Source of the DNA: Anaerolineaceae bacterium
GTDB lineage: Bacteria; Chloroflexota; Anaerolineae; Anaerolineales; Anaerolineaceae
Direction: 5' to 3'
DNA length: 64,000 nucleotides
Assembly (NCBI GenBank): GCA_016841525.1
Contig: JAENYZ010000001.1
Span: 868,001 to 932,000, forward strand
Shown here: one piece after another, positions 29,683 through 46,584 of the stretch
Layout: each line of letters begins with the position of its first letter
Position numbering within the stretch: position 1 is the first letter of the stretch
Notes under the pieces: generated by a model
The model's input: only the letters and a program-made list of their open reading frames with translations
The model's database searches: none
What the model was told of the DNA's origin: nothing
Program-made: the position numbers and the translations under genes

Positions 29683-31470
29683 TTACCGAGCCTGCTCTTC
29701 TATTACGTAGCACTCGAGCAAATCTCCTTCTTCAAACTCATGAAATTGTTTTAATGCAATACCGCATTCAAATCCCTCGCGTACCTCACGCACATCATCT
29801 TTGCCGCGCTTCAAGGAACCAATTTCACCTTCAAAAACGACATCTTTGTTCCGAATCACACGAATCTTGCCATTTCGTCGAATTTCGCCGTCCACAACAC
29901 GGCATCCGGCTGCAACTTTAAAACGTGAAACCGCAAAGGTCGCAAGTACTTTTGCTGATCCGATGGTGCGCTCAACCAGCTCCGGTTCGAGCATACCCTT
30001 GAGTGCCTTTTCAACATCTTCAATCAAACGATAAATGATTGTGTACAAACGTACCGAAACGCCTTCTGTTTCTGCGAGGCGTTTTGCAGCGTTGTCGGCA
30101 TCAACGGCAAAGCCAATCACAATTGCATCCGATGCAGCAGCCAGCATAACATCACTCTCAGTGATGTTGCCGGTTTCCTGGTGTAAGACATTCATGGACA
30201 CTTCTGATTGTTTCTCGCCAAGTTCTTTAAGGGAGTTGACAATCGGTTCAAGGGATCCTTGAACATCTGCTTTTACAATCAAACGAAGTTCCTGCTCTTC
30301 GCCCGCCTGAAGACGCTCAAACAGGTCTTCCAGTGTTGCACGGGGTGCAGCAATTTGTTGCTCTTCATTGGCTTCAATATCTTCTACAATCGCTCGTGCT
30401 TCCTTTTCAGATTCAACCACCCTGAAAATATCACCAGCACGGGGAACGTCGTTCAGCCCCATGACTGCAATCGGTGTTGAAGGACCCGCTCTTTTAATGG
30501 GCTTACCACGAAAATCAAACATGGCTTTAATCCGACCATGGGCTTTCCCAGCCAGGATGGTGTCCCCAACATCAATCGTACCATTTTGCAAAAGCAAAGT
30601 TGCCATCGTCCCACGGAATTTATCCAACTCTGCTTCAACAACCGTACCAAAAACCTCACCTTTAGGATTGGCTTTAATATCTTTATTATCAGCGACCAGC
30701 AAAATTGCTTCCATCAAATCATCCAAACCCTGCATCTTCGTTGCTGAGACAGGCACGACAATCGTATCCCCGTCCCATTCATCGGGCACAAGGTCAATTT
30801 CTGCAAGCTGCTTTTTAGCCATTTCAGGGTTAGCGGATGGTAGGTCCATCTTGTTTAAAGCCACAACGATTGGCACCCTTGCAGCTTTGGCATGGTTTGC
30901 AGCTTCACGGGTTTGCGGCATAACACCGTCATCTGCAGCAACAACCAGCACGACAATATCTGCACCCTGTGCACCTCTTGCCCGCATCGAAGTAAAAGCT
31001 GCGTGTCCTGGCGTGTCAAGAAAGGTAATCTTACGGCCACTGTGTTCAATCTGATAGGCACCAATATGCTGAGTAATCCCACCCTCTTCACCACCAGCGA
31101 CGTTTGTCTTTCGTATGGCATCCAAAAGGCTGGTTTTTCCATGATCAACATGCCCCAACATTGTCACAACTGGCGGTCTGGGCTGTAAATCTTCTTCCTT
31201 TTCATCGGCAATCACCCGACGCCATAAAGGAATTTCGCCCTTATCTTCCGGTTTTTCTTCTTCAATTTGAAGAAGCTCAGGTTCAAATCCCAATTCGCTG
31301 GCGACGACGGCAGCAGTATCAAAATCTACATTTTGATTAATGCTCGCCATAACACCATTAGCCATCAAGACCTTGATGACCTGAATGGGACTGGCGTCCA
31401 TTTTTTCAGCCAGTTCCCTCACGCTTATGCTGTAAGGCAAAATAATTTTCTTAATATCGTTATCGCTCAT
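29683..31470 (-). CDS. infB: translation initiation factor IF-2 (short form)
   Basis: GTPase that positions initiator tRNA on the 30S subunit. A compact IF2_N domain (SVRELAEKMDASPIQVIKVL) is followed directly by the G domain with GHVDHGKTSLLD, DTPGHAAF and NKMD, then the beta-barrel and C-terminal domains. At 595 residues it lacks the long N-terminal extension found in Escherichia coli. It has an excellent GGAGG site six bases before the ATG. It lies downstream of ylxR with a gap of about 100 bases. Confidence 0.97.
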   Translation of the reverse strand: MSDNDIKKIILPYSISVRELAEKMDASPIQVIKVLMANGVMASINQNVDFDTAAVVASELGFEPELLQIEEEKPEDKGEIPLWRRVIADEKEEDLQPRPPVVTMLGHVDHGKTSLLDAIRKTNVAGGEEGGITQHIGAYQIEHSGRKITFLDTPGHAAFTSMRARGAQGADIVVLVVAADDGVMPQTREAANHAKAARVPIVVALNKMDLPSANPEMAKKQLAEIDLVPDEWDGDTIVVPVSATKMQGLDDLMEAILLVADNKDIKANPKGEVFGTVVEAELDKFRGTMATLLLQNGTIDVGDTILAGKAHGRIKAMFDFRGKPIKRAGPSTPIAVMGLNDVPRAGDIFRVVESEKEARAIVEDIEANEEQQIAAPRATLEDLFERLQAGEEQELRLIVKADVQGSLEPIVNSLKELGEKQSEVSMNVLHQETGNITESDVMLAAASDAIVIGFAVDADNAAKRLAETEGVSVRLYTIIYRLIEDVEKALKGMLEPELVERTIGSAKVLATFAVSRFKVAAGCRVVDGEIRRNGKIRVIRNKDVVFEGEIGSLKRGKDDVREVREGFECGIALKQFHEFEEGDLLECYVIEEQAR

Positions 31471-31572
31471 ATAAAACCTCCGTTAGTATTCCCCTACCCC
31501 ATTTTCACCCGTAAAGATAAAAATGCGGCCAAAAATATTATTCTTGCTGATGAGCGATTAGATGATTTTAAT

Positions 31573-31899
31573 TCATCTTGACGATTCCTCTGCCCCCTGT
31601 TGAACCAGTTCTTCGTCAGGAAGTTGATTTTCCATAAAGTTTCGTAAATCTTCTTTTTCCTGATCTGTCAGCCTGGTCCTCAGTGCATGGTCAAGTGCGC
31701 CATTGATACCGCGCAACCAGCAAGATCGTTTGTCGTGTAAATACGCCCCTCTGCCGTGAGCCCTACCGGTGTTATCAACCTTAACACCCTCTGGCCCATT
31801 GACAATTCTGATCATTGAGCGTTTTGACAGGACTTCTCTGCAGCCAACGCATGTCCGCCTTGGGACATGCTTACTTCGACGCTTTGGTTTTTTGACCAT
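31573..31899 (-). CDS. ylxR: YlxR family RNA-binding protein (RNase P modulator family)
   Basis: Basic protein of 108 residues with the YlxR signature RTCVGCREVLSKRSMIRIV and GRAHGRGAYLHDKRSCW. The N-terminus is a basic patch (KKPKRRSKHVPRR). Members bind RNA; the Bacillus relative has been renamed RnpM as an RNase P modulator. It sits between nusA and infB as usual. The start codon has no strong ribosome site; it lies 33 bases after nusA. Confidence 0.93.
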   Translation of the reverse strand: MVKKPKRRSKHVPRRTCVGCREVLSKRSMIRIVNGPEGVKVDNTGRAHGRGAYLHDKRSCWLRGINGALDHALRTRLTDQEKEDLRNFMENQLPDEELVQQGAEESSR

Positions 31900-31932
31900 C
31901 TAATCGCTACTCATGTATAAATTTATTAAAAT

Positions 31933-33825
31933 TTACCAATCTTCCCAATCGTCTACATCTTCTCGAGGTGGTCGAGGTTTCTTCCGCTTCTTCTTCTTTT
32001 CGGGCTTTGCACGATCCTCTTCTTCACCTTCTTCAAATTGGGCAGGTGCGGGTTCGTAATACCCGTATTTTGATGCATCATACGAGAAGAGCTTGTCGAA
32101 ATCTTCTTCTTCCTCGTCTTCTTCTTTTTCAACTGGCTGTTTCTTGACTGGCTTAGGCGCTTCTTCGATGACCTCTTCCACAGGTTCTTCTTCAACAACC
32201 GCTTCAAGGGGTTCCTTGATTTCCTCTGCCGGCAATTCTTCAATAGGTTCTTCAACAACTGCCTGATCTGCCGGTTTTTCTACTGGCTGTACCACTTCCT
32301 CAGCTTCAACAGCAATCTGTTCTCCCGGTGAGACACGTAATGCATCGGTCAATTCAGATATTTCCTCAAAGGATTTCGGACCAATGCCATTCAAAGCAAG
32401 AATTTTGTCTGAGTCGAGCCGCATTTGAAGAACAAGATCACCCAGGGTATCAATACCTGCTTCCTGCAGGATGAAAAGGATGTGTTCCTTCAAGTCCACA
32501 TCAAGAATGTCAATTTCAAAGGTCAATTCAGGAACTGTAGCCAGGGCTTCTTCATGACGACGTTGTTCTTCAATGTCCTCTTCACGTCGTTTCTTCTCAA
32601 CCCGTTTTTCCACGCGGTCGATAAATTTTGCCATGAAGTCATAATCTTCAGGGGGCAATGGTCGCCCTTCTGCTTTCTTTTCAAGCATGACGACAATTTT
32701 CTCCATTGCCTCAGCTTCGCGAGCTGCCATTTCCTGGTATTGTGGGTCTTCCTGCAGTTTCTTAAGTGATTCGCCCGCCGCTTCAACCTGGCTCTTGATA
32801 TCAATTCGCCAGCCTGTTAGTTTGGCAGCCAACCGGGCATTTTGACCGTCCCGTCCAATTGCAAGGGAAAGCTGATCCTCTGGAACGACGACGGTGGCTG
32901 TCCTTCCATCTTCCTCAGTTTCAGATAAATAAACGCCAACCACACGAGCTGGGCTGATTGCTTTGGCAATGAATGCCGCAGCATCATTGCTCCACTCAAT
33001 CACATCAATTTTTTCATCGCTCAGCTCACGGACAATCGCCTGAATTCGAACACCGCGCACACCCACACAGGCGCCCACAGGGTCAATACCCTGCTGTGTT
33101 GCTGAGACAGCAACTTTTGCCCGCTGACCGGGCTCACGGGCGATCGATCGAATTTCGACAACTCCGTGATAAATTTCAGGCACTTCGTTTTCCAACAATC
33201 GACGGAGGAATTTGCGATGTGCCCGCGAAAGATAGATCATCGGGCCGCGACCGCTCTCTTTAACATCATAAATTAAACAGCGGATGCGGTCATGAACGCG
33301 TAATCGTTCTCGTGGGATCATGTCCTTCCGAAGCATGGTGCCTTCGGCTTTTTTATCCAAACCTATGGTTGCGCCACGGCCGCTGATCGCCTGCACAACA
33401 CCACTGACGATCTCGCCCACTTGTTTGGCGAAATATTCATACTGGATCTCGCGCTCTGCTTCACGAATGCGTTGTTGAATGACCTGGCGAGCCGTTTGTG
33501 CAGCAACACGCCCAAAATCTTCAGGCGTTGTATCCACAACAACCATATCACCAAGTTCTGCTTCAGGTTCTACCTTTTGAGCTTCACTTAACAAAACTTC
33601 GGTTTGCTCATTTTGAACATCTTCAACAACTTCTTTTTCCGCGAATATCCGTACATCCCCGGAATCCAAATCAACTTTCGCTTCAACAAACTGCGCGTTA
33701 GAAGCATTAACAGCCCTGCGATAGGCTGAAACCATTGCTGATTCAAGCGCATCCAGAATCACATCCCTGGATAGCTGTCGATCCTCAACAACTTCATTAA
33801 ATGCCAGCGCAAATTCACTTTTCAT
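31933..33825 (-). CDS. nusA: transcription termination/antitermination factor NusA with long charged C-terminus
   Basis: Binds RNA polymerase and nascent RNA. The N-terminal domain, S1 domain (GEIVSGVVQAISGRGATIGL) and two KH domains (DPVGACVGVRGVRIQAIVRE, SLAIGRDGQNARLAAKLTGW) are all clear. A helix-hairpin-helix region (GIDTLGDLVLQM, LNGIGPKSFEEI) follows. The last 150 residues are an acidic Glu/Val/Pro stretch ending in a Lys/Arg-rich patch and DDWEDW, making 630 residues. No rimP is present upstream, where a divergent gene begins. ATG at 33825 with GGA nearby. Confidence 0.96.
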   Translation of the reverse strand: MKSEFALAFNEVVEDRQLSRDVILDALESAMVSAYRRAVNASNAQFVEAKVDLDSGDVRIFAEKEVVEDVQNEQTEVLLSEAQKVEPEAELGDMVVVDTTPEDFGRVAAQTARQVIQQRIREAEREIQYEYFAKQVGEIVSGVVQAISGRGATIGLDKKAEGTMLRKDMIPRERLRVHDRIRCLIYDVKESGRGPMIYLSRAHRKFLRRLLENEVPEIYHGVVEIRSIAREPGQRAKVAVSATQQGIDPVGACVGVRGVRIQAIVRELSDEKIDVIEWSNDAAAFIAKAISPARVVGVYLSETEEDGRTATVVVPEDQLSLAIGRDGQNARLAAKLTGWRIDIKSQVEAAGESLKKLQEDPQYQEMAAREAEAMEKIVVMLEKKAEGRPLPPEDYDFMAKFIDRVEKRVEKKRREEDIEEQRRHEEALATVPELTFEIDILDVDLKEHILFILQEAGIDTLGDLVLQMRLDSDKILALNGIGPKSFEEISELTDALRVSPGEQIAVEAEEVVQPVEKPADQAVVEEPIEELPAEEIKEPLEAVVEEEPVEEVIEEAPKPVKKQPVEKEEDEEEEDFDKLFSYDASKYGYYEPAPAQFEEGEEEDRAKPEKKKKRKKPRPPREDVDDWEDW

Positions 33826-33870
33826 GTTTCCACTTACTCCAAATAACTAACGAAACCTGCTTGATACAAA

Positions 33871-33895
33871 GAAAAGTGGGGGGAACCCACTTTTC
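33871..33895 (-). promoter_or_regulatory. hairpin in the nusA 5' leader
   Basis: A perfect 10-bp inverted repeat (GAAAAGTGGG with CCCACTTTTC) and a five-base loop, 46 bases before the nusA start. A short T-rich run follows on the minus strand. It could be an attenuator or leader element for nusA; the evidence is structural only. The remaining gap to 34144 holds the glucosidase promoter and no other recognised feature. Confidence 0.5.
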
Positions 33896-34083
33896 GACGT
33901 AAAGGGTATGAAAAATAAGCCGAGGCTTATCAACTCACCTGTGATTTTAGCACATATCAAGGTGAGGTGCAAGGGAATTAAGGTACTGCCAAGCAGGTAT
34001 TTTACATATTTGTGCTTAAAAAATTCCAAACAAAAATTCGAAGTAAACTCAATGAAGATGTCAAGGAAAGTTCCTGATTTATT

Positions 34084-34111
34084 TTGCGAAAAGACAATAA
34101 TCTACTATAAT
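34084..34111 (+). promoter_or_regulatory. predicted promoter of the GH13 glucosidase gene
   Basis: TTGCGA (34084-34089) and a perfect TATAAT (34106-34111) are separated by 16 bases. The start codon lies 34 bases past the -10 box, which gives a short leader and argues against a start further upstream. Confidence 0.7.
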
Positions 34112-34144
34112 TTATCGAAATGGGATTCGAGCGAAGGACGAATA

Positions 34145-35725
34145 ATGACAGATGAATTCTTGTGGTGGCGTGATGGTATCATTTACCAAATTTATCCTCG
34201 TTCTTTTATGGATGCAAACGATGATGGCATTGGTGACCTGAAAGGGATCATCAGCCGGCTCGATTATTTAGAAGACATTGGAATCGATGCCATTTGGCTG
34301 TCCCCAATATTCCCTTCCCCTGATGTTGATTTCGGCTATGACGTCGCAAACTATAAGGATATCGATCCAAAATTTGGCACAATGGAGGATTTTGAACAAT
34401 TAATTGCGGAAGCAAAACACAGAAAGATCCACATTATCCTGGATTTAGTACTTAACCATACTTCCGATCAACATCCCTGGTTTATTGAATCTAAAAAATC
34501 GACGGATAATCCCTATCACGATTGGTATCTCTGGCAGGACCCCAAACCAAACGGTGACCCGCCCAATAACTGGCAGTCGATCTTTGGTGGACCAGCCTGG
34601 GAGTATGATCCCGACCTGAGACAATATTACTATCACATGTTCTACAAAGAACAACCCGATCTCAACTGGCGAAACCCGGACGTTCGCCACGAAATGCTGG
34701 ATGTTTTCCACTTCTGGCTGGACAAAGGTGTTGCTGGCTTCAGGCTTGACGTGTTTAATGCCTACTTCAAAGACCCTGAATTTAGAGATAATCCTTCAAA
34801 ATTTGGCATCCGCGCTTTTGACCGCCAGGAGCATATTTATGATGTCAGCCAACCGGAGATGATGCCCTTATTGAAGAATATTCGCGAAATTTTAGATCAA
34901 TATGATCAGACATATGTCGTGGGTGAAACATTCATGGCAGATACAGAACAAACAGCAAATTACTGCGGGGATGACAAACTTCACGCCGCCTTTAATTTTA
35001 AATTTGCAGAAAATCGCTGGCATCCCAAACGATTCCTAAATTCATTAACTGAGTGGTATCAATCATTGTCAGGGTATGCCTGGCCAAATAATTTTCTCAG
35101 CAACCATGATATGACCCGCACCGCATCGCGCTATTGCTTTGGTGAGGATGACAGGCGGGCAAAGGTTGCTGCTGCAATGCTATTGACAGTAAAAGGTACC
35201 CCTTTCATTTATTATGGTGAAGAGCTCGGTATGCGGGACATTCCGATTCGAAAGAGATCTGACGTAAAAGACCCCGTTGGGAAAACTTATTGGCCTAATT
35301 TCAAAGGACGGGACGGCTGCCGTGCCCCCATGCAGTGGAACGATAAAGAATACAGTGGCTTTTCCGAAACAGAACCCTGGCTGCCAGTCCATTCAAATTT
35401 CGTTGAGAGAAATGTTAAAACCCAAACAGCCGACCCAGAGTCAATCCTGAACTTTGTGAAAACCATCATTCGAATCCGAAAAAATGAACCCGCTTTACAA
35501 CGTGGGGATTTCACGCCAATAATAACAGATCCCAGACATCTCCTTGCCTTTACCAGGGGCTTTGGCACAGAAAAAATATTAGTGGTTTTGAATTTCAGCA
35601 GTCGTGAGCTGACCTATCAACTGCCCGATGGCACCTGGGTTTCGTTATTTGATAACCAAACAACGGAAAATGAATTATTGAAGATCAATCCGTACCAAGT
35701 TCATATCCTAAAACTTAAAGACTGA
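34145..35725 (+). CDS. GH13 alpha-glucosidase / oligo-1,6-glucosidase
   Basis: Cytoplasmic glycoside hydrolase of 526 residues that releases glucose from alpha-linked oligosaccharides. The alpha-amylase conserved regions are clear. Region I is DLVLNHTSDQHPWF, region II is GFRLDVFN (nucleophile Asp near residue 201), region III is VGETFM (acid/base Glu near 260) and region IV is FLSNHD (Asp near 321). The early GIGDLKGI and the C-terminal beta domain are typical. The ATG at 34145 has AAGGA upstream and follows the promoter closely; an open frame to 33908 was not used. Linkage specificity (1,4 versus 1,6) cannot be decided. Confidence 0.93.
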   Translation: MTDEFLWWRDGIIYQIYPRSFMDANDDGIGDLKGIISRLDYLEDIGIDAIWLSPIFPSPDVDFGYDVANYKDIDPKFGTMEDFEQLIAEAKHRKIHIILDLVLNHTSDQHPWFIESKKSTDNPYHDWYLWQDPKPNGDPPNNWQSIFGGPAWEYDPDLRQYYYHMFYKEQPDLNWRNPDVRHEMLDVFHFWLDKGVAGFRLDVFNAYFKDPEFRDNPSKFGIRAFDRQEHIYDVSQPEMMPLLKNIREILDQYDQTYVVGETFMADTEQTANYCGDDKLHAAFNFKFAENRWHPKRFLNSLTEWYQSLSGYAWPNNFLSNHDMTRTASRYCFGEDDRRAKVAAAMLLTVKGTPFIYYGEELGMRDIPIRKRSDVKDPVGKTYWPNFKGRDGCRAPMQWNDKEYSGFSETEPWLPVHSNFVERNVKTQTADPESILNFVKTIIRIRKNEPALQRGDFTPIITDPRHLLAFTRGFGTEKILVVLNFSSRELTYQLPDGTWVSLFDNQTTENELLKINPYQVHILKLKD

Positions 35726-35810
35726 ATTCAAGAAAGTTCATCTTTTAACGATTACAATCAAGAAAAGTATCACACACGCATCGGACGCTCGACTTAAGAA
35801 GAAAGTTTCG

Positions 35811-38048
35811 ATGGACATACCTTATATCCCCGGCAAAGGTTCAATCCCAGACTTGCCACTTGGACGGTTTATACCCCCAATCCCCAGCGGCATGGTAAGT
35901 GAGTGGTGCCTGAAATATCTCTCACCAGGCGACAGGGTGCTCGATCCCTTTGGTTTTAATCCCATGGTCCCTGTCGAAATCGCATCTGCTGGATTCCAGG
36001 TTCTGACCACCGTCAACAACCCCATCCATGCTTTTATGCTGAAAATTATCGCCAGTGCTCCCCAGGAAACAGAATTAATCGCTGCGCTGCAGGACCTGGC
36101 AGCTGCACCCAAAGGCGACGACCGCATGGAACCCTACATCCGGAGCCTTTATCACGTAAGTTGTGCAAATTGCAAACGTCACATCGAAGCTAATTCCTTT
36201 CTTTGGGAAAAGGGAGCAGATTATCCCTTTAAAGCCCAGGTCAAGTGCCCCTATTGTGGTGCTGCCGGCGAGCAGGAAATCACAACTGAAGACAAGGAAA
36301 TCATGGGAACTTTGCCGTCCATTCAACTGCACCAGGCTCGTGCCCTTAACAGGATCGTTGGGCAGGATGAAAAACTGCGGTCCCAGGTCTTGAATGCGCT
36401 TAACGCTTACCCACCCCGGCCCATCATCGTCTTGCAAACCATCATCAATAAACTCAATAGCCTGGAACAAAGCCCAAGACGTCGTGATCTTTTAATTGCG
36501 CTGATCCTGTCCGCCGCTGATTTGGGCAACACCTTGTGGGCATATCCCTCCCCTCGAAATCGCCCACGGCAAATTGTCGTTCCCAATGTTTACCAGGAGC
36601 GCAACCTCTGGAATGTACTCGAAGAGTCAATCAAGTCGTGGCAGGTTCTCTCAACCCCTATCCTACTTCAGAACTGGAGCGAATCCTACTCAGAAGATCC
36701 GGGTATTTTCTTGTTTCCTGGACGCTTAAGAGAGCTGACACCCCAGCCAGATCAAGGATTCTTTTCTGCAATATTCGCCGCTATTCCAAGACCAAACCAG
36801 GCTTTTTGGACGCTTTCAGCCTTATGGACCGGATGGATTTGGGGTCAGGAAGCAATAACACCAATCCGCAATGTCCTTTTTCGGCAGCGTTATGATTGGA
36901 ACTGGCATACCAACGCATTAAAAGCTGTTTTCGATACCTTTGAGGATTTTCACTACCCTGACCTAAAACTTTATGGACTCATCGCTGAAAACGAGCCAAT
37001 GCTCTTGTTAGCTGCATTGATGGCAGCCGAGATATCCGGTCTTACGCTGTCAGCCTTTGCCCATTCTTTGGACGATCAAATTGCGCAATGCCACTGGATT
37101 AAGAATCCAAACCCAAGCGATCATGATTTACCTGCTTCAGCAATTAAAATTGCCCACCAATCTGTGAGAGATTACCTGAACCAAAAGGGTGAAACCGCAA
37201 ATTATCAACAAATCCACACTTCGGCGGTCACTGGTTTAGCGAGTGAACATAAGCTTGCCCTGGACATCTTTCTTCAAAACCCAAATAACGCTGCCTCCGA
37301 GACTCAAAAATGGATTGAATCCCTGTTTACAGAAGGAAATCTTCTAAGAAGAATTGGGGCAGAAACAGCATCGATCGAAACCACGGATTGGTGGCTTAAA
37401 AACCCACCCGGGCAATCGACATCCTTGATTGATCGTGTTGAAGAAACCCTGCTCAAGCACCTTTTTCAAGTAACAGAAACAACAGCCCAAGATCTTAAAA
37501 CCTTCGTTTACCAAACCTTTCCCGGGAGATATACACCAGAAGACAAAGTTTTGCTAAACTGTCTCGAATCTTACGCCGAGCTCATTGATGATCAAAAACA
37601 TCTCTGGCGTTTGCGGGAAAACGAAAAGCCAAACCTCAGAGAAGCTGAGGTGAATAAAATTCGAAAAATTTTATTAGACATGGGTGAAAGGCTGAATTAT
37701 AAAAGCGGCGGTGATAACCCAATTCTATGGTTTGACAATCTTGATGGCAACCCAAATTACAGCTTTCTCGTGCTTTCAACCGCCATCGTATCAAAGCATA
37801 TTTGGAAAAATAATGGAAATACCCGGACAAATGTACTGGTTATACCCGGCAGTCGGGCAAACCTTCTCGCATATAAAAAACAACGTGATCCAATATTAGG
37901 GGAAAAATTGGATCACAATTTTCTTACAGTAAAATTCCGTCTCATCCGTGATTTAGACGCAAACCCATTACTGACACGAGAATTGTTTGTTGAACAAATC
38001 CAAATTGACCCTCCTGAGTACCGGGCATCACAATTAGCTTTGTTTTAA
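35811..38048 (+). CDS. large Zn-ribbon protein with a DNA-methyltransferase-like motif (function unknown)
   Basis: 745 residues, no signal peptide. An N-terminal segment (IPPIPSGMVSEW, then GDRVLDPFGFNPMVPVEIA) resembles the SAM-binding DPFxGSG motif of N4/N6 DNA methyltransferases, but with FGFNP in place of the Gly-rich loop. A zinc-ribbon follows: CANC near residue 119 and CPYC near 143. I find no DPPY or NPPY catalytic motif; the matching region reads RPRQIVVPNVYQERNLW. A helical middle (DQGFFSAIFAAIPRPNQAFW) and a C-terminal alpha/beta region (SFLVLSTAIV, NVLVIPGSR) complete it. It lies 85 bases after the glucosidase and ends six bases from the convergent PBP gene. It may be a degenerate or repurposed methyltransferase. 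Confidence 0.7.
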   Translation: MDIPYIPGKGSIPDLPLGRFIPPIPSGMVSEWCLKYLSPGDRVLDPFGFNPMVPVEIASAGFQVLTTVNNPIHAFMLKIIASAPQETELIAALQDLAAAPKGDDRMEPYIRSLYHVSCANCKRHIEANSFLWEKGADYPFKAQVKCPYCGAAGEQEITTEDKEIMGTLPSIQLHQARALNRIVGQDEKLRSQVLNALNAYPPRPIIVLQTIINKLNSLEQSPRRRDLLIALILSAADLGNTLWAYPSPRNRPRQIVVPNVYQERNLWNVLEESIKSWQVLSTPILLQNWSESYSEDPGIFLFPGRLRELTPQPDQGFFSAIFAAIPRPNQAFWTLSALWTGWIWGQEAITPIRNVLFRQRYDWNWHTNALKAVFDTFEDFHYPDLKLYGLIAENEPMLLLAALMAAEISGLTLSAFAHSLDDQIAQCHWIKNPNPSDHDLPASAIKIAHQSVRDYLNQKGETANYQQIHTSAVTGLASEHKLALDIFLQNPNNAASETQKWIESLFTEGNLLRRIGAETASIETTDWWLKNPPGQSTSLIDRVEETLLKHLFQVTETTAQDLKTFVYQTFPGRYTPEDKVLLNCLESYAELIDDQKHLWRLRENEKPNLREAEVNKIRKILLDMGERLNYKSGGDNPILWFDNLDGNPNYSFLVLSTAIVSKHIWKNNGNTRTNVLVIPGSRANLLAYKKQRDPILGEKLDHNFLTVKFRLIRDLDANPLLTRELFVEQIQIDPPEYRASQLALF

Positions 38049-38054
38049 CAAGAC

Positions 38055-41000
38055 TTACCCCCCAGTAGTGTCTGTCACCGAAGGCGTTGCTGAAGGTGAT
38101 TCTGTTGGGGTGCTAGTTGGGTTCTGCGTTGATGTTGGTGCCTGTGTTGGTGCCTGAGTCGGTGTTCTCGTAGGCGTTGGCGTTGGCGTATCCATGTCAG
38201 TCGGCGTAATGGTGGGGCTTGGCGTCGGTGTTAAAGTCGGCGTGTGTGTTGGAGTTTGTGTCGGGGTCGGTGTCGGCAGTTGAATATTTATGGTCATCAA
38301 TTTTTCAGCATAGGTGTCTTCTGTGCTGTGAATATAAAACTTCAAAGTGTAGATACCTGCATCCAATTCTTCCAGATCCCACTCGTACAAAGTTCCCCGA
38401 TCTTCCTGTGGTGAGTGCTCTTCCTCAACAAGTGTCTTCCACGTCACCGGATCGCCACCCTTACCATATTCAATGCGATAGTAATCAAAATTATCCGTAG
38501 CAGTGATAACACCTTTAATTTCTAAGGGACTTGTCTTGATTGTCTGCCCTTCGCTGATACTCGCCAACTCAATGATCGGTCGGGGATCATCTGCTCTACA
38601 GGCACGATCTGGTGCAAAAAACAAAGGCGTCGAAAAGCCCATATCTTCAGCCCAGGCACGTCCTTTCGGATCATCTTTTAGCCATTTCTGTGCCCATTCA
38701 TCATCTACATTGATCGCAAACATCTGATCGGTGAAATCACTGCAATCGTCAGAAACGAGCAGTCCTGTCCAGGTGTCAATTTCTACTTTATTCCATAGAT
38801 CCTCAGACTTCGGTTTTGGCAGCTGGTCAGACGCAAATATTTCGCTGCGCTGCTGCGGGCACCACTCTGAAGGCTCCGTCCCCGAAATCGCACAAACCAC
38901 ACGATCGACAACACCGGCAGGCCGGCTAAAGGGTGTGGGGTTCCCGTCTTTGATTTCACCAATTGCGTAGGTCATAAATTCTGCCCAGATAGGACCTGCC
39001 CCTGTCAAACCGGTTGTATTTACCATGGGTGTGTAATCGGTATTTCCAATCCAGGTACCCACGACCAAATCGGGGGTGTAACCAACCGTCCAGTTGTCCC
39101 GAAAATCGTTGGTCGTACCGGTTTTAACTGCAGCTTGAAAATCCAGGTTGATAACCGGGTTGGTACCGAACATCGGGACCCTTGCGCTCTTGTCCGATAG
39201 GATCGAAGAAATCAGGTAGGCATGTTCTGCTCTCACAACCTGGTCTCCTGTGGGCGGCTCATATTCATATACAATGTTGCCGCTGTGATCAATAATTTTT
39301 GTGATGGCAATACTGGGCATTCTTCGTCCCTGATTCGCAAAGGTCGCATAAGCGCCTGTTAATTCCTTCAGGCTAATTTCGCCGCCGCCCAATGTTAATG
39401 CAAGCCCATAATCACTTCGAGTCAAACTGGTAACCCCCAGGCGCTGGGCGAAGGATATCAAGCCATCCTCTGCAGGTGTGTCCGGATCGTCATACACACC
39501 CACAAATTCCAGGGCTTTTACAGCAGGAATGTTGTAAGAATTTGCCAGTGCAGATCGCAAAGATACCGGACCGTGAAACTTGCCGTCGTAATTGACGGGT
39601 TCATAAGGTGGGTTGGTATCAAAGGGATCGGTAGAAGGGGGAAATTCCGTGGGAACATCCCAAATTAAAGTGGCTGGCGTCCAACCCTTTTCAAATGCTG
39701 CCACATATGTCAGCGGTTTAATTGCAGAGCCAGGCTGTCGGGTTTGTGACAAAACCATGTTTACCTGGCCGTCAATCTCATCATCATGGAAATCAGCTGA
39801 ACCCACCATCGCCAGTATCTCACCGGTGTTAGGGTCCATCGCCATCAAAGCGCCATTCGAAGCGTTATTTTCCACCAGGGAAGCAAGTTGGCTCTTAACA
39901 ATGCTCTCAGCTTTGCTTTGAAGATCAGGGTCCAGGGTCGTATAAACAGTAAATCCACTTTTATAAATGGTCTGGGAGTCAAATTGCTCTTCTAACAAGG
40001 ATTTGACATAGACAACCCAATGTGGATAACGCATAAAAAAGTTTTGTTCAGGAAACACATAATTCGCAAGGTCAATCCCTGCCTGTGTTGCATCAGGGTA
40101 GGAGACACACACGGGCGATCTGCCCGTCCCTACATCAATACAGCCCCTTTCAGAACTCAACTCATACATTAATACCAATACGGATCGCTGTCGATACAGG
40201 GTTGCTTCTCTGTTGGTATAAATGTCATAAATTGAAGGCCCTTGCGGTAATCCTGCCAGAAAAGAAGCCTGCCATAAATTCAATTCTTCAGCAGAGGTAT
40301 TGAAATATGACTCTGAAGCAGCCTGAACACCGTAAGCCATATTGCCATAAAAATTCTCGTTCAGGTAAAGTTCCAAAATTTCTTCTTTTGAATACTGCCG
40401 AGTGATCTCGTATGCCAAAACGATCTCGCGGGCTTTTCGTTCGTAACTTTGTTCGTATCTTTCCGCAGGATCAAGAAGCAAAGCACGAGCCAATTGCTGA
40501 GTGATGGTCGAGGCACCAGACTGTATCTCTCCAGCGGTGTAGTTTTGAATGAGTGCACGGGTCATCGCGAACAAATCAAACCCGGGATTGGTGAAGAAGT
40601 CCTTATCTTCTGTAGCGATCGTGGCAGCTATCAATTCTGCTGAAATGTCTTCCAGGGGAACATAAGTGCGTCGCCCAGCGTTGGGATCGATAATTTCATA
40701 TAACAAATGACCATCCCGATCCAGAATTCGAGTTGTTTCAAATTGAGCAGCATTTTCCCGCAGTTCATTGACATCCGGTAAGGACGAAGATATCCGAAAA
40801 TATTGGTAAATTGCGACAGAACCAACCACAAGCGCCGCCAAAACAACTAAGAAAATAAAAAGCAGGAAAGCCTTGAGTAAACATCCACCAAATTTTTTCC
40901 TGGTTTTTGGCTTCTTAGGACGCTTGGGTTTCGACCCTCGTTGACTTTTTTGAGTTGTCGTTTTTGCAGGAATCTTATTGGTTTCCTGTCGATCCCTGGG

Positions 41001-41912
41001 CTCTCGTTTTGCTGCCAGGTAAGCAGCAGGTGTGACCTGTGTGGCTTGCTTATCAATTTCACTGACAGCTTTTGGCAAATTTGGATTTTCTGGCGTCCAG
41101 CCCAAAGGGACATTGGGCGGTGGGATTGTAGGGATATCATCGCTGGCAAGATGCGACCCTTTGACAGGCGTCACATCTTCATCTGGCACTGGTCTGTTTT
41201 TTTCTGATTCTATTCGCTTAGATGTTTGGGCTGGCAATACACGCGTTTCAGCAAGGGATGCAGATTCACTGACGCTTTCATCAGCATCTGGTTCCACCCC
41301 GTTTTCCTCGCTAATTTGCACAGGCTGAGTATCTTCGTCATCCGTAATTGGTTCTATCGGCGTAAAGGGGACATCACCCCACCAATCCCCTGAATATTCA
41401 TCCAGTTTGGGGTGACCATCCTCAGGAGCCCCGTTTTCATCGGCTGCCATTATAAACACATCATCCTCGAGGGCTTCGAGATCTGCATCATCACCCTCTG
41501 GTGTTGCGCTGTCAGTGATCTCAACATCCTCAAAATCATTATCGCTTGATTCAATTTGTTCGTAGGCTTTTTCATTTTCTTCGTCGGAAGAAATTATATC
41601 CTCATCCAAACTTTCCTCATCACTCTCTTCATCAATCGTAAGCTCTTCCTTCTCGTCAGATTCTGCTTCCTCTTCCAGGGGTTCAATTTCTTTGCTTTCA
41701 ACATCCGGTGACGAGTCAACAGGCGCGCCATTTCCTTCAATAACATCCTCAAACCCTTCATCTGGATGAGCGGACAACTCGTCTGACACCACTTCTATTT
41801 CTTTTGTGTCTTCTTCATTTAAAGGAAGCTCTGCATCAACAGGGTTCTCACCAACAGGTTGCTCCCCGTTTTGCAATGGCTCTTTGTTTTCAATGTCATT
41901 ATTTTCAGTCAT
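38055..41912 (-). CDS. class A penicillin-binding protein (PBP1A-like) with long acidic N-terminus and Thr/Pro C-terminal tail
   Basis: Bifunctional peptidoglycan synthase of 1285 residues, far longer than the usual 650-850. Residues 1-340 are a predicted disordered cytoplasmic region, mostly Glu/Asp, that turns Lys/Arg-rich just before one membrane helix (about 350-372). The GT51 transglycosylase has ATEDKDFF (Glu near 432) and [14 protein letters not shown]. The transpeptidase has the acyl Ser in RQPGSAIKP (near 727), SYN in ANSYNIP and KTG in [10 protein letters not shown] (near 927). After an Ig-like segment the protein ends in about 70 residues of Pro-Thr repeats. It acts at the outer face of the membrane. 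Confidence 0.95.
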
Positions 41913-42049
41913 GGCATAATTCTAGCATAATTCCTATCTAATTAATAGACGCAAGCCAATACGATAAAGTTCCCTGAAATTATCCACTTATAATGAACGC
42001 AGTCTAAATCAGAATCATTTAAAAGATCAATTATTGGTAAAATGGGAGT

Positions 42050-44440
42050 ATGCAGCCCCATTCCTTAGATCAAACCAATCCAAATGCGTTTATCCTGGTC
42101 TCCGAAGGCGAATTTTCAAATTGCCTTCCGAACTCAGATCAGGTTTGGGTTTTAAATTTGGATACAAGGGACCTGCAGCCCTTTTCCTTAAGCACAACTT
42201 ATGGCTTGAGGGCAAAATCAATGCATGTGTTTCCAGGGTTCATTTATGAAAATCAGCACATTTCAAAACCCGATGATTTTACCAAACCGCCAAGGGTGAC
42301 CTGCTACACCGCCGCATCCGTGCAGATAGAAGCAAGTTACGGCAATCACTTTGAATTTACATTCACGTGTTATTTGCCTGAACCCGATGTGTTAACGGGC
42401 GGCATCCAAATCAGAAATCTCAAAGAAAAGCCGATTGAAATCACTGCACAGCTGGCAGTAAAACTGGTTCCCATAGGTAAAGGTCAACCTTTACATCCTG
42501 AAAAATCAGGACCCAATCACTTCCTGGCAGGGAAAACCGATGCCTTGGAACCTGTATTATTTATGACGGGCGGACCAACCGCCATCAATAATCCCTTTCC
42601 CGCCCTGACAATCCAGCTCAATATTCAACCGCATCAATCTCAAGACGTATCATGGGTTTTGGTCAGCAAAGAAACAAAAACAAAGGGGCTTGAAAAAGCC
42701 AGGGCTATGATCACAAACAGCTGGCAGGATGTTTTTTTAGCGAATGTAAAGCGTTCGGAGCGTCAAAACATACAAATTAAAACTGGAAATTCAGATTGGG
42801 ATGCTGCATTTCTTCTTGCACAGATCCATGCCAGAACCCATTTTGTTAACTGTGTCGGTGTTGAAAATAAAATCAAATTCAGTAAAACCCGATTGCCTGA
42901 TCAATCAAGTGTCAACCAGGACCATCCCTCTCAATCAAATATCCTTACAAATCTTGAGCTTCACCATCTCTGCCAGGTCATGATGCCTGGTAGTGTTGAT
43001 TTGTTTGCCGATCTACTGGAAAAGCAGATCGGCAATCAATTGGAAATCGAGAACGCAAAAGCAGAAGAAAACATTTTCTCTGCAAGAAAAACAATAAACG
43101 GATGTCCGTTGCTGGCAACAACTGTCCTCGAAGTTTATGAAGTCACACAAAATCTTGCGTATTTAAAGAAACTCTTCCCATACCTTACGCAATTATTCCG
43201 TTCCTGGGTCAGTGATCAGGTTTCAGGAGATGAAAAGGCGCATATTGTCTGGGAGACAGCATCGCAATTGCAAATTGACACAGGCTTGTTTACCTACGAC
43301 TTTTGGGAATCCTGCTGTAAAGGACTGGATATTTCTATATCTGAAAGCCCGGGCCTGTATGCCATGCTGTACAGGGAGGCAAAAGCCCTATATGAGATTT
43401 CGAAAATCCTTGGCGAGCGGTTTCAACTGCGAACCTTCAGCCGTTGGCAGAAAGAGCTATTCAAGCGTTTGGAAAATTGCTGGCAGGAAGAAAATGGGGT
43501 TTACAGCTACCAGGACATTCAAACGCACCTGAGCCCCGAACGAGAATTATATTTTCCTAGCCCAGTTAAAAACCGCGTTGAAATAAGAAAAAGATTTTCA
43601 AAGCCGCAGCGCTTACAATGCCACATAAGCTCATCGGATGAACACACCCGGGTTTGCAACGTAAAAATCACCGGGCGTTCCATTCAAGGTGAGTCCTTGG
43701 AAGAGGTAATTAAATCTTCTGATATCCTTTGGGTTTTTGGAAGGGCGCATCTTACATCTGACAATATTTTTAGTGAATTAACCGCCATATCTTTCGATGG
43801 CCTCAAACCTGACGATAAATTCATCCTGGAAACAGCAGATTTTACACAACAGGATATCTCTTGTTTATTGCCCCTTTGGGCAGATGCAGGAGCAGAAGCA
43901 CACCGCCAAACCCTGGCTTCCAGCTGGCTCGATTCCCACAAGGATGCATTTTCCCACGGCATCCCGGAAACATGGCCGGGCAAGGGTGGCTTACCTGAGA
44001 ACCTCCCCATTATGATCAATGTGTTGTGGAACACGTTGATCATTGAAGGCTTTGTCAAACAGGGGAAAAGTGATGCGGCTTCCATCCTTTTTGCAAGCCT
44101 GATGGAGACAATCCTCCACGGATTGGGAAATTATCAAGGTTTCTATCCCCTTTTTGATCAAAAAAACGGACACCCTTCAGGCCAGCAAAATGCTATCACC
44201 GGTTTGATCCCGCTGCAATTGTTTTTAAAAATCGCTGGAATAAAGATATTCTCACCCAATAAACTCGCTGTATGGGGAAATAACCCATTTCCCTGGCCAA
44301 TTGAAGTAAACTGGCAAGGGCTTTCTTTTGTCAAAGATAACGTGCATACATCCATCATTTTCCCGAATGGCACCACAGCATATCATGACTCCGGAAAACC
44401 GGTTTTGATAAGTTCTGAAATGGATCACGAACAATCATGA
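42050..44440 (+). CDS. six-hairpin glycosidase-like protein (function unknown)
   Basis: 796 residues, no signal peptide. The N-terminal third is beta-rich (ASYGNHFEFTFTCYLPEPDV) and the rest is helical. The segments NSDWDAAFLLAQIHARTHF, LPYLTQLFRSWV-like helices and LPENLPIMINVLWNTLIIEG recall the (alpha/alpha)6 barrel of the GH15/GH63/MGH1-like clan. I cannot point to a secure catalytic acid pair. A separate beta-type insertion lies around residues 490-590. It overlaps the downstream lipoprotein by four bases (ATGA), implying coupled translation. A role in carbohydrate metabolism is inference from fold resemblance only. Confidence 0.65.
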   Translation: MQPHSLDQTNPNAFILVSEGEFSNCLPNSDQVWVLNLDTRDLQPFSLSTTYGLRAKSMHVFPGFIYENQHISKPDDFTKPPRVTCYTAASVQIEASYGNHFEFTFTCYLPEPDVLTGGIQIRNLKEKPIEITAQLAVKLVPIGKGQPLHPEKSGPNHFLAGKTDALEPVLFMTGGPTAINNPFPALTIQLNIQPHQSQDVSWVLVSKETKTKGLEKARAMITNSWQDVFLANVKRSERQNIQIKTGNSDWDAAFLLAQIHARTHFVNCVGVENKIKFSKTRLPDQSSVNQDHPSQSNILTNLELHHLCQVMMPGSVDLFADLLEKQIGNQLEIENAKAEENIFSARKTINGCPLLATTVLEVYEVTQNLAYLKKLFPYLTQLFRSWVSDQVSGDEKAHIVWETASQLQIDTGLFTYDFWESCCKGLDISISESPGLYAMLYREAKALYEISKILGERFQLRTFSRWQKELFKRLENCWQEENGVYSYQDIQTHLSPERELYFPSPVKNRVEIRKRFSKPQRLQCHISSSDEHTRVCNVKITGRSIQGESLEEVIKSSDILWVFGRAHLTSDNIFSELTAISFDGLKPDDKFILETADFTQQDISCLLPLWADAGAEAHRQTLASSWLDSHKDAFSHGIPETWPGKGGLPENLPIMINVLWNTLIIEGFVKQGKSDAASILFASLMETILHGLGNYQGFYPLFDQKNGHPSGQQNAITGLIPLQLFLKIAGIKIFSPNKLAVWGNNPFPWPIEVNWQGLSFVKDNVHTSIIFPNGTTAYHDSGKPVLISSEMDHEQS

Positions 44441-46584
44441 TTCAGAAAAAGCTATCCATCTTCTCATTGTTCTTCACTTTTGTCATTCTTCTATCAGCCT
44501 GCCAATCAGCTCAGACGCCTGCAGCCACACTCACAGAAGGATCATCTTCATCCACTGCCACAATCAGGCCCACAGAAACCAGCACACCAAGCCCCGAGCC
44601 AACCAGTACACCAACCGCCAGTCCAGAGGCAGTCAAGGAAGACATTAGAGCTGTTGGGACACCGCTGCCATCTGATCTTGCAATGATTAATACCGAAAAC
44701 ATTAAACAAATCCGACATCTTGCAAGCTGGGGTACTGGCAGCCCTAACATCATCCACCTGTCAGGCAGCGGGCAGATTCTGGCGGTAGGAACAAGAAACG
44801 GCGCACATTTCTACGACAGCCTTGGACTATACGAATTGGCGTTCAGGGAAACCCCTTATTCTGTTATGAGTTTTGCCTTTTCCACGGACTTTAAATATGT
44901 CGCCGTTGGTCAATTGGGCGGTGCGATCAACATCTACGATCGATTTGGTTTTACACCAATCTTTCAGCTTAATTCCCCCATCCAGAGCTTACCCAAGGTT
45001 TATGATTTCGACCTATTTTTCTCACCTGAAAATGAGAAACTCATCAGCATTATCCGTACTGATGAAAAAATATTTATCAATCACTGGCGAACCAGTGACT
45101 GGCAACCTGTTGATGCATATAACATTGATAATGGGTATGTCTCTTACATCAACCCGGATGTTGGGATTATTGGTGTGGTGAAACAGGGTGAACTGCTGCT
45201 GCAATCAATGCTCTTTTCAGAGGATATAAAAATCATCTCAATTCCTGAATCATTGCCAAAAGAGTACTGGCTGGAACTGGTTGCAAACAATGGCGAAATA
45301 TCAGCCTGCGGGAATGGCGAGGATTTGTTGATCAACAATGGGTCAAGCATTCTCCGATGGAATATCCGCTCGGAAAAGATCAGCTACAAACTGGATGAAT
45401 ATCCGGAAGCTTTACCTGGTCCCTGCCAGAAGCTTGCTGAGACCTGTCTTAATCAAAATGGAAAACCCTCATGGATATGTGGGGAGGAAACAATCCCAAC
45501 GATTGAAATCACTGCGCTCACGCCAGATGGCCTTATGGTGCTGATTTCCCGAAATGACAATATTGTTGAGTTTAGACGATCTTATGATGGCCTGATTTCA
45601 TGGGAAATTGAGACGAAATACACACAGGTTCAGTTTTCACCAGGCAGTGAATTCTTTTTTGGCTTGCGTGAGGATGGGCTCATTGAAAAGGTCAGCACGG
45701 AAAATGGTTCCCTGTTGGGCGTTATTGACCAGCATCCCAGTCGTATGTATGACATTGCTTTCTCGCCAAACGGGAATGACGTCGCCGGGGGCATCAATAC
45801 TGGCTGGGTTCAAATTTACGACACTGTGGACGGTCAGACCGTTGGTGTTTTAGCTGGGTCTGCCTCTTCTTTGGAATATTCACCGGATGGCACCTTACTG
45901 GCAGCAGGTTTGCTGGATGGTCGGCTTCGCATCTTTGAATTGGCAATAGGGCAGTTCTTCGATCTCCCCGGTCACCAGGACGCAATCACAGACATGGCTT
46001 TTTCCCCGGATGGAGAAGTTCTGCTGGCAGGGAGTGATGATTGCACCATCAGTTTATGGGATATCAAAGATCGGTCCCTAATAAAATCGATCCTCCCTGG
46101 TAAGGGAAGCCCGTTCATGATCAAGGGTGTGGAATTTTCACCGGTCAAAGACAATCAATACCTAGTGGGCAATTATGAAAGTCTTAATCTTGTATCACAA
46201 GAGGTGGAACTGTCGCTTTTGCCAGCCATCTTAACAAGTGATATTGCTCTTTCAGAAAATAAGCAAACCCTGGGGGTTACAGGTGAAAGTACTTATCTGC
46301 TCAGAGAAATTGATGAAAACGCCTTTTCTTCATCTTTAAGACTATCAACACAGGGAAACGTCCTCGCCCTGAACAAGGATGGTTCGCTACTGATCATCGG
46401 GACGAGTGACGCCCTCGAGTTCTGGTCTGTGGAATCAGGAACAAAACTTCATGAAATTCCTTTAAAAGAAGACACTTATCCAGCCAATACGCCAATTAGC
46501 CTGGAAATGTCATCGGATAACACCCTGGTTGCCCTTGGTTTTCAAAACGGTTTGATCGATATATTTGGCATACCCATGAATTAA
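44437..46584 (+). CDS. WD40-repeat lipoprotein
   Basis: Exported lipoprotein of 715 residues. The signal peptide ends LLSAC with the lipidated Cys at residue 22, followed by a Ser/Thr/Pro-rich linker. The rest is a beta-propeller. WD-type repeats are clear in the C-terminal half (IAFSPNGNDVAGG, MAFSPDGEVLLAGSDD, TISLWDIKD), and a more degenerate propeller probably makes up the N-terminal half. It probably serves as a binding scaffold at the cell surface. The start codon overlaps the stop of the glycosidase-like gene. Confidence 0.88.
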   Translation: MIQKKLSIFSLFFTFVILLSACQSAQTPAATLTEGSSSSTATIRPTETSTPSPEPTSTPTASPEAVKEDIRAVGTPLPSDLAMINTENIKQIRHLASWGTGSPNIIHLSGSGQILAVGTRNGAHFYDSLGLYELAFRETPYSVMSFAFSTDFKYVAVGQLGGAINIYDRFGFTPIFQLNSPIQSLPKVYDFDLFFSPENEKLISIIRTDEKIFINHWRTSDWQPVDAYNIDNGYVSYINPDVGIIGVVKQGELLLQSMLFSEDIKIISIPESLPKEYWLELVANNGEISACGNGEDLLINNGSSILRWNIRSEKISYKLDEYPEALPGPCQKLAETCLNQNGKPSWICGEETIPTIEITALTPDGLMVLISRNDNIVEFRRSYDGLISWEIETKYTQVQFSPGSEFFFGLREDGLIEKVSTENGSLLGVIDQHPSRMYDIAFSPNGNDVAGGINTGWVQIYDTVDGQTVGVLAGSASSLEYSPDGTLLAAGLLDGRLRIFELAIGQFFDLPGHQDAITDMAFSPDGEVLLAGSDDCTISLWDIKDRSLIKSILPGKGSPFMIKGVEFSPVKDNQYLVGNYESLNLVSQEVELSLLPAILTSDIALSENKQTLGVTGESTYLLREIDENAFSSSLRLSTQGNVLALNKDGSLLIIGTSDALEFWSVESGTKLHEIPLKEDTYPANTPISLEMSSDNTLVALGFQNGLIDIFGIPMN

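Follow-up and report, generated by a model that had tools for sequence, protein, structure and literature searches.

Our results suggest, with a probability of about 0.6, that the 745-residue protein encoded in a 64,000-nucleotide stretch of Anaerolineaceae DNA (hereafter the window) is an old, domesticated and non-catalytic pseudoenzyme, probably DNA-binding, that derives from a Zn-ribbon N4/N6 DNA methyltransferase and has been kept by selection. Its proposed ancestor would be such a methyltransferase joined to a winged helix and to a domain resembling a restriction nuclease. The residues for methyl transfer would then have been lost, in the class Anaerolineae together with the nuclease-like residues, and the gene would have been retained by selection as one copy per genome. 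We argue that the protein no longer transfers methyl groups because the signature residues are replaced, and that it has another function because selection keeps the gene. This role, the least certain part of the reading, may be that of a non-catalytic DNA-binding scaffold or regulator, with the ribbon, the former target-recognition surfaces and the winged helix contacting DNA; that ribbon and winged helix bind DNA is the simplest assumption, made with moderate confidence. Judged from its residues, the protein would neither bind SAM productively nor methylate. An earlier note on this DNA had proposed a so far uncharacterised family in which a methyltransferase fold is repurposed, and this is supported by losses that are fixed in the order Anaerolineales (0/57) and by homology in both directions. 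The family has no model in Pfam, NCBIfam or PADLOC and we infer its function; the protein should not be classified as a DNA methyltransferase, since tests for the defining motifs found none of them.

Motif remnants and their loss across the family

The coordinates and the length of the open reading frame, reread from the window's own list, were correct (Table 1). The opposite strand is interrupted by stops in the matching frame, and the longest other frames there measure 101 to 131 aa.

Table 1. Features of the pseudo-methyltransferase gene and of a short gene found beside its relatives (window positions unless a locus is named)
Feature	Position	Strand	Basis or remark
Whole gene, 745 aa pseudo-methyltransferase	35811..38048 (stop included)	+	ORF list; match in 36/41 genomes
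Motif I remnant VLDPFGFNP, residues 43-51	35937..35963	+	both loop Gly of DPFxGxG replaced
Motif II remnant VLTTVNNPI, residues 64-72	36000..36026	+	SAM-ribose acid lost, D/E in 0/57
Zn ribbon, C118 C121 C146 C149	36162..36257	+	four Cys kept in 57/57, 64/64, 19/19
Motif IV remnant AIFAAIPRPNQAFWTLSALWTGWIWG, residues 320-345	36768..36845	+	aligned to TDPPYAGLVPYLDLSMVWLVWL of intact enzyme
RQRYDWNW block, residues 358-365	36882..36905	+	R358, R360, W363, W365 invariant in 30-sequence alignment
Strand-helix-strand-strand, residues 386-431	36966..37103	+	arranged like beta5 to beta7 of a methyltransferase; model of low confidence
Winged-helix domain, residues about 535-603	37413..37619	+	model and structural comparison
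Alpha/beta domain, residues about 607-733, weakly PD-(D/E)xK-like	37629..38009	+	model; L653, L655 at ExE places
Short VPI protein gene	L080:7728-8276; L081:7146-7676; L030:3763-4299; six more loci	-; -; +	

The N-terminal stretch LDPFGFNP (residues 44-51), in which the Gly-rich loop is replaced, and the CxxC...CxxC ribbon were both found as described before. In addition to the losses named then, the acid after beta-2 is gone (TVNNP). The protein was also rightly said to have no DPPY-type motif, and the DPPY site itself can be located by alignment, as it falls on residues 324-327 of the protein, which read A-I-P-R within AIFAAIPRPNQAFWTLSALW (PRPNQAFW). The full-length structure model made from 7 sequences was poor (mean pLDDT 44.9), the methyltransferase domain included.

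Retention of the motifs was counted in 140 family sequences: 57 from Anaerolineales, 64 from other orders of the class and 19 from other Chloroflexota classes, with eight intact relatives (L067-L073 and L165) set apart (Table 2). The counts leave out the repeat genomes L031-L036 and the duplicates L037-L042, L050, L074-L077 and L082. The class sample leaves out some matches that scored weakly or were broken into small pieces, the other-class sequences fill 19 of 20 places drawn from 49 matching other-class genomes, and the group alignment was made by adding sequences to an earlier alignment.

Table 2. Family sequences that retain methyltransferase residues at the aligned sites
Residue	Anaerolineales	Other orders of Anaerolineae	Other Chloroflexota classes	Intact relatives
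First loop Gly	0/57	2/64	4/19	8/8
Last loop Gly	0/57	3/64	12/19	7/8
Motif II acid	0/57	19/64	14/19	8/8
Catalytic Asp	0/57	9/64 (all DPPR)	0/19	7/8 (one Glu)
Aromatic after PP	0/57 (Arg in 57/57)	0/64	1/19 (RPPY)	8/8
Catalytic [DNS]PP[YFWH] (E also allowed)	0/57	0/64	0/19	8/8 (set apart for having it)
All four ribbon Cys	57/57	64/64	19/19	6/8

The absence of DPPY is thus conserved in 57/57 Anaerolineales. Conservation of GFNP held only in part: the exact GFNP is confined to close relatives, but a loop of the form G-x-[SNAHQT]-P extends across the order, with G in 55/56 and P in 56/56 (at the place of the last loop Gly) and one further sequence truncated. At the motif IV site the full catalytic tetrad was found in none of the 140 sequences of the three groups. 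A [DNSE]PP[YFWH] tetrapeptide occurs elsewhere in 10/140; four of these (L045, L058, L060, L062) have EPPF at one shared place in the beta5 strand, where the window's protein reads ENEPM, and the remaining occurrences are scattered, which gives no conserved migrated motif among the 140. Outside Anaerolineales the losses are incomplete, so the ability to bind SAM may persist there. In a midpoint-rooted tree the 57 order sequences fell together (support 1.0) within the 121 of the class (0.83). The 19 other-class sequences group with a support of only 0.27, so that motif IV may have been lost once or more than once.

PRPNQAFW and RxRYDWxW rank among the most conserved stretches of the family, and this could speak for an enzyme that is still active, in which PRPNQ, the invariant Trp and R-x-R-Y-D-W would line the old pocket as a new active centre. 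We regard this as unlikely, as the motif II acid and the Gly loop are found in 0/57 and no match in Pfam, NCBIfam or PADLOC points to an enzyme.

Homology to intact methyltransferases

For the protein itself, Pfam, NCBIfam and PADLOC gave no significant match. Neither PF01555 (N6_N4_Mtase) nor NF042963 (DUF1156 anti-phage methylase) was listed for it up to E 10; among 30 members scanned, each reached one (E 0.02 and 0.027), as did the CcrM model (E 0.012). The best of the scattered matches in these 30 members was to a winged-helix model, PF10264 (3.7e-5, in one member), and PF05876 matched 10 (best 9.8e-4) and NF003067 three (best 2.3e-4). Two sequence searches of the PDB yielded no more than 4 and 3 matches (E 0.15 to 0.82), and zinc-ribbon proteins were among those of one search. 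In the literature searched, which most subscription papers lie outside, no title among the matches listed concerned the family.

By hhalign the family aligned to intact Zn-ribbon N4/N6 DNA methyltransferases over 644 columns (99.7%, E 3.6e-26), with PRPNQ-AFWTLSALW placed opposite DPPY...LDLSMVW. The family HMM matched L070, an intact 820-aa enzyme with DPPY, at 1.6e-29 in three stretches (the N-terminus and profile positions 445-634 and 639-728), and it matched L067-L069 (DPPH), L071-L072 (DPPF) and L073 (EPPF) mainly in the N-terminus and ribbon. In the reverse direction, a profile of five intact enzymes from which the family was excluded matched the pseudo-methyltransferase gene at E 1.9e-11, from motif I through the ribbon, and no other gene in its genome at E 1e-10. 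This reverse match is support and not proof, because it is no stronger than those of the profile to ordinary small methyltransferases in other relatives. The 644-column match is also a better test than our group-wise comparison of N-termini, because there a gap filter left few rows (3/57, 15/64 and 10/19). All five intact relatives scanned exceed the PF01555 cut-off; NF042963 matches intact relatives too, but far below its cut-off. Judged by these profiles, the family shares common descent with N6_N4_Mtase (PF01555) members, and the N-terminal likeness to N4/N6 DNA methyltransferases noticed earlier is borne out by homology in both directions. A search for close homologues with intact motifs gave none, the best intact relative having 28% identity over 109 residues.

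The Zn-ribbon N4/N6 DNA methyltransferases of the COG1743/DUF1156 kind have the motifs in the same order, with the ribbon after motif II, and share the R-x-L and LSxxW segments with the pseudo-methyltransferase, in which DPFxGxG, the motif II acid and DPPY are replaced. Compared with the 563-aa relatives, it carries an extra C-terminus made of a winged helix and a nuclease-like domain. L070, from an Anaerolineales genome, shares the N-terminus, winged helix and C-terminal domain with it, but has intact DPFAGSA, DLNP, DPPY and D...EVE and no Zn ribbon.

Another methyltransferase gene, smaller and with DPFVGSG and SPPY, overlaps that of L070 (L070:4793-5731, + strand), which suggests a two-methyltransferase unit. 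After the genes of the DPPH methyltransferases (563-564 aa) comes an overlapping gene of 386-390 aa (L067:4552-5724 and L068:4576-5736, both + strand), perhaps a restriction partner; the L068 product had no match in Pfam or NCBIfam. In L073 (847-3981, - strand) an apparently intact Zn-ribbon methyltransferase with EPPF is fused in-frame to a dihydroorotate-dehydrogenase-type electron-transfer domain, and on contig C66 of genome G039 a 1011-aa frame also matches the methyltransferase part.

The protein might instead be a pseudo-subunit, with an active methyltransferase from elsewhere in the genome stimulated or targeted by it in the way that METTL14 acts on METTL3. Partner-activating pseudoenzymes exist, T. 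brucei PRMT1 PRO being one example (PMC10211241), and the window's own genome holds four PF01555 methyltransferases above the cut-off. We nevertheless consider such a role improbable, as an intact enzyme of the same type is missing from this genome, where at E 1e-10 the intact-enzyme profile finds no other gene than this one. The profile has long matches (E 1e-25 or better) in 4/41 genomes (G008, G025, G029 and G039), and one of them, G025, had supplied a row of the profile. DUF499, which PMC7641849 describes as the partner in the COG1743 operon, was found in just 1/41 of the relatives' genomes.

Predicted C-terminal domains

A model of residues 530-745 made from 7 sequences was of better quality (pLDDT 81.8, pTM 0.79) and predicts two domains. 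The winged helix resembles the cullin WHB and Rpc5 (Z 6.9, 2.5-2.6 Å over 65-66 residues; for the cullin WHB, 2.5 Å over 66). In Foldseek the C-terminal model had weak matches, the best to FokI (E 3.7e-3) and others to YaeQ and Can2, with an O-methyltransferase at rank 2 and winged-helix proteins also among them; in the viral library it matched a phage protein with the name restriction endonuclease (9.4e-3). No match in the PDB and viral libraries reached E 0.001, and values of Z up to 7 may mean only a common arrangement. FokI, YaeQ and Can2 have PD-(D/E)xK folds, and the predicted C-terminal domain would share the order of its helices and strands with FokI and YaeQ. The earlier note had described a long helical and alpha/beta C-terminus as retained; the alpha/beta part stands, but a winged helix is present as well and neither domain belongs to the methyltransferase.

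Unlike in FokI and YaeQ, the D...ExE pattern is absent from the Anaerolineae sequences (0/57 and 0/64). In the other classes D..W...[EQDK][VLI][ED] is present in 19/19 by pattern and 18/19 by aligned column, and by alignment D...ExE is also found in one intact relative, L070. The full-length homologues of the other classes are like the window's protein in keeping the ribbon and lacking the catalytic tetrad (both 19/19), but differ in keeping D...ExE and, in 14/19, the motif II acid, both of which are lost here. We read this as loss of a nuclease-like site in the class Anaerolineae, and we infer both that the domain may once have cut DNA and the order in which the losses would have occurred.

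Genomic setting, spread and selection

The own genome consists of 9 contigs that total 3.2 Mb, one of which, of 1 Mb, carries the window (Anaerolineaceae, with Brevefilum as relatives). Seven flanking genes were scanned (29683-46584), encoding IF-2, YlxR, NusA, an amylase, a penicillin-binding protein, an MGH1-like glycosidase and a WD40 protein. The neighbours are housekeeping genes: the amylase-family gene lies upstream, with nusA, ylxR and infB further upstream, and the penicillin-binding-protein gene downstream is convergent with the pseudo-methyltransferase gene, at a gap of 6 bases. In the genus both neighbours recur in 6/6 loci examined, and in L075, from a different genus of the family, the penicillin-binding-protein gene adjoins as well. 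None of the seven is a restriction gene, in agreement with the claim that no restriction partner is nearby. Plasmid and phage records gave no match to the pseudo-methyltransferase at E 0.001, and a pattern scan of viral contigs gave 51 pattern matches with no relative among them.

The gene is present in 36/41 genomes searched, its own one counted. Of the five genomes without it, two are incomplete ones of the same genus (81 and 70%), and the remaining three belong to other families of the order. In six loci of relatives (Brevefilum sp. and Anaerolineaceae MAGs) the identity was 54 to 91% over nearly the whole length. By our own count from a listing of 396 class genomes sorted by kinship, 57/63 Anaerolineales genomes of at least 85% completeness match, 7 of the 57 with extra, weaker or split matches. 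The other class genomes match in 96/333, some of these being weak matches to intact methyltransferases and not family members, and a search of the phylum gave 75/301, of which 49 lie outside the class. Measured against its two closest orthologues (90-91% identical), dN/dS was 0.11-0.13 (dN 0.045 / dS 0.359 and dN 0.046 / dS 0.422). Given its presence in 36/41 genomes and the low dN/dS, the reading frame is not a chance one, and these substitution rates indicate that the gene is kept by purifying selection.

Defence genes are usually patchy in their spread, and the distribution found here (57/63) is unlike this, which bears on the idea that the dead domains might sense invading or modified nucleic acid. 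Intact relatives do resemble restriction-modification enzymes, and inactive REase domains have been proposed as sensors in BREX-related systems (PMC12839542). PADLOC, however, had no match for the pseudo-methyltransferase, and its matches in 3/7 flanking genes were to general domains only (a translation-factor GTPase, an amylase-type protein and a WD40 protein), so that a defence role appears quite doubtful. That the gene is a decaying, functionless remnant of a restriction-modification enzyme, as the missing catalytic residues and the scanned flanking genes without a restriction partner might suggest, is very improbable and already contradicted by the dN/dS values, by replacements that are fixed and not random in the order, and by the lack of internal stops in every match listed from the 41-genome and class-wide searches.

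Restriction-modification enzymes are mostly mobile and patchily spread. As a tentative extension of our preferred reading, a DNA-binding pseudoenzyme kept by selection, the protein may be a housekeeping protein spread widely through Chloroflexota, with a fused restriction-modification enzyme as its origin; methyl transfer would have died first and the nuclease-like residues later, while the remodelled pocket (PRPNQ, RxRYDWxW) took on a new, specific chromosomal role. If true, a lineage in which a version with both catalytic centres disabled became fixed and was kept under selection across an order would illustrate a clear path from a defence-type enzyme to a housekeeping protein. The order of loss can be tested thanks to the variants at hand, namely DPPR, APPT and RPPY, a motif II acid without motif IV, and D...ExE kept or lost.

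As a general operon partner we rejected a short protein that has a hydrophobic stretch at its N-terminus and several copies of a VPI motif, since its profile matches 168/396 class genomes, the window's own not among these, and at least nine places adjoin the pseudo-methyltransferase gene among the class-wide matches listed. It is encoded after that gene in nine loci of a set in which most loci carry just a few hundred flanking bases (Table 1). In L080, the penicillin-binding-protein gene lies about 3 kb from the pseudo-methyltransferase gene.
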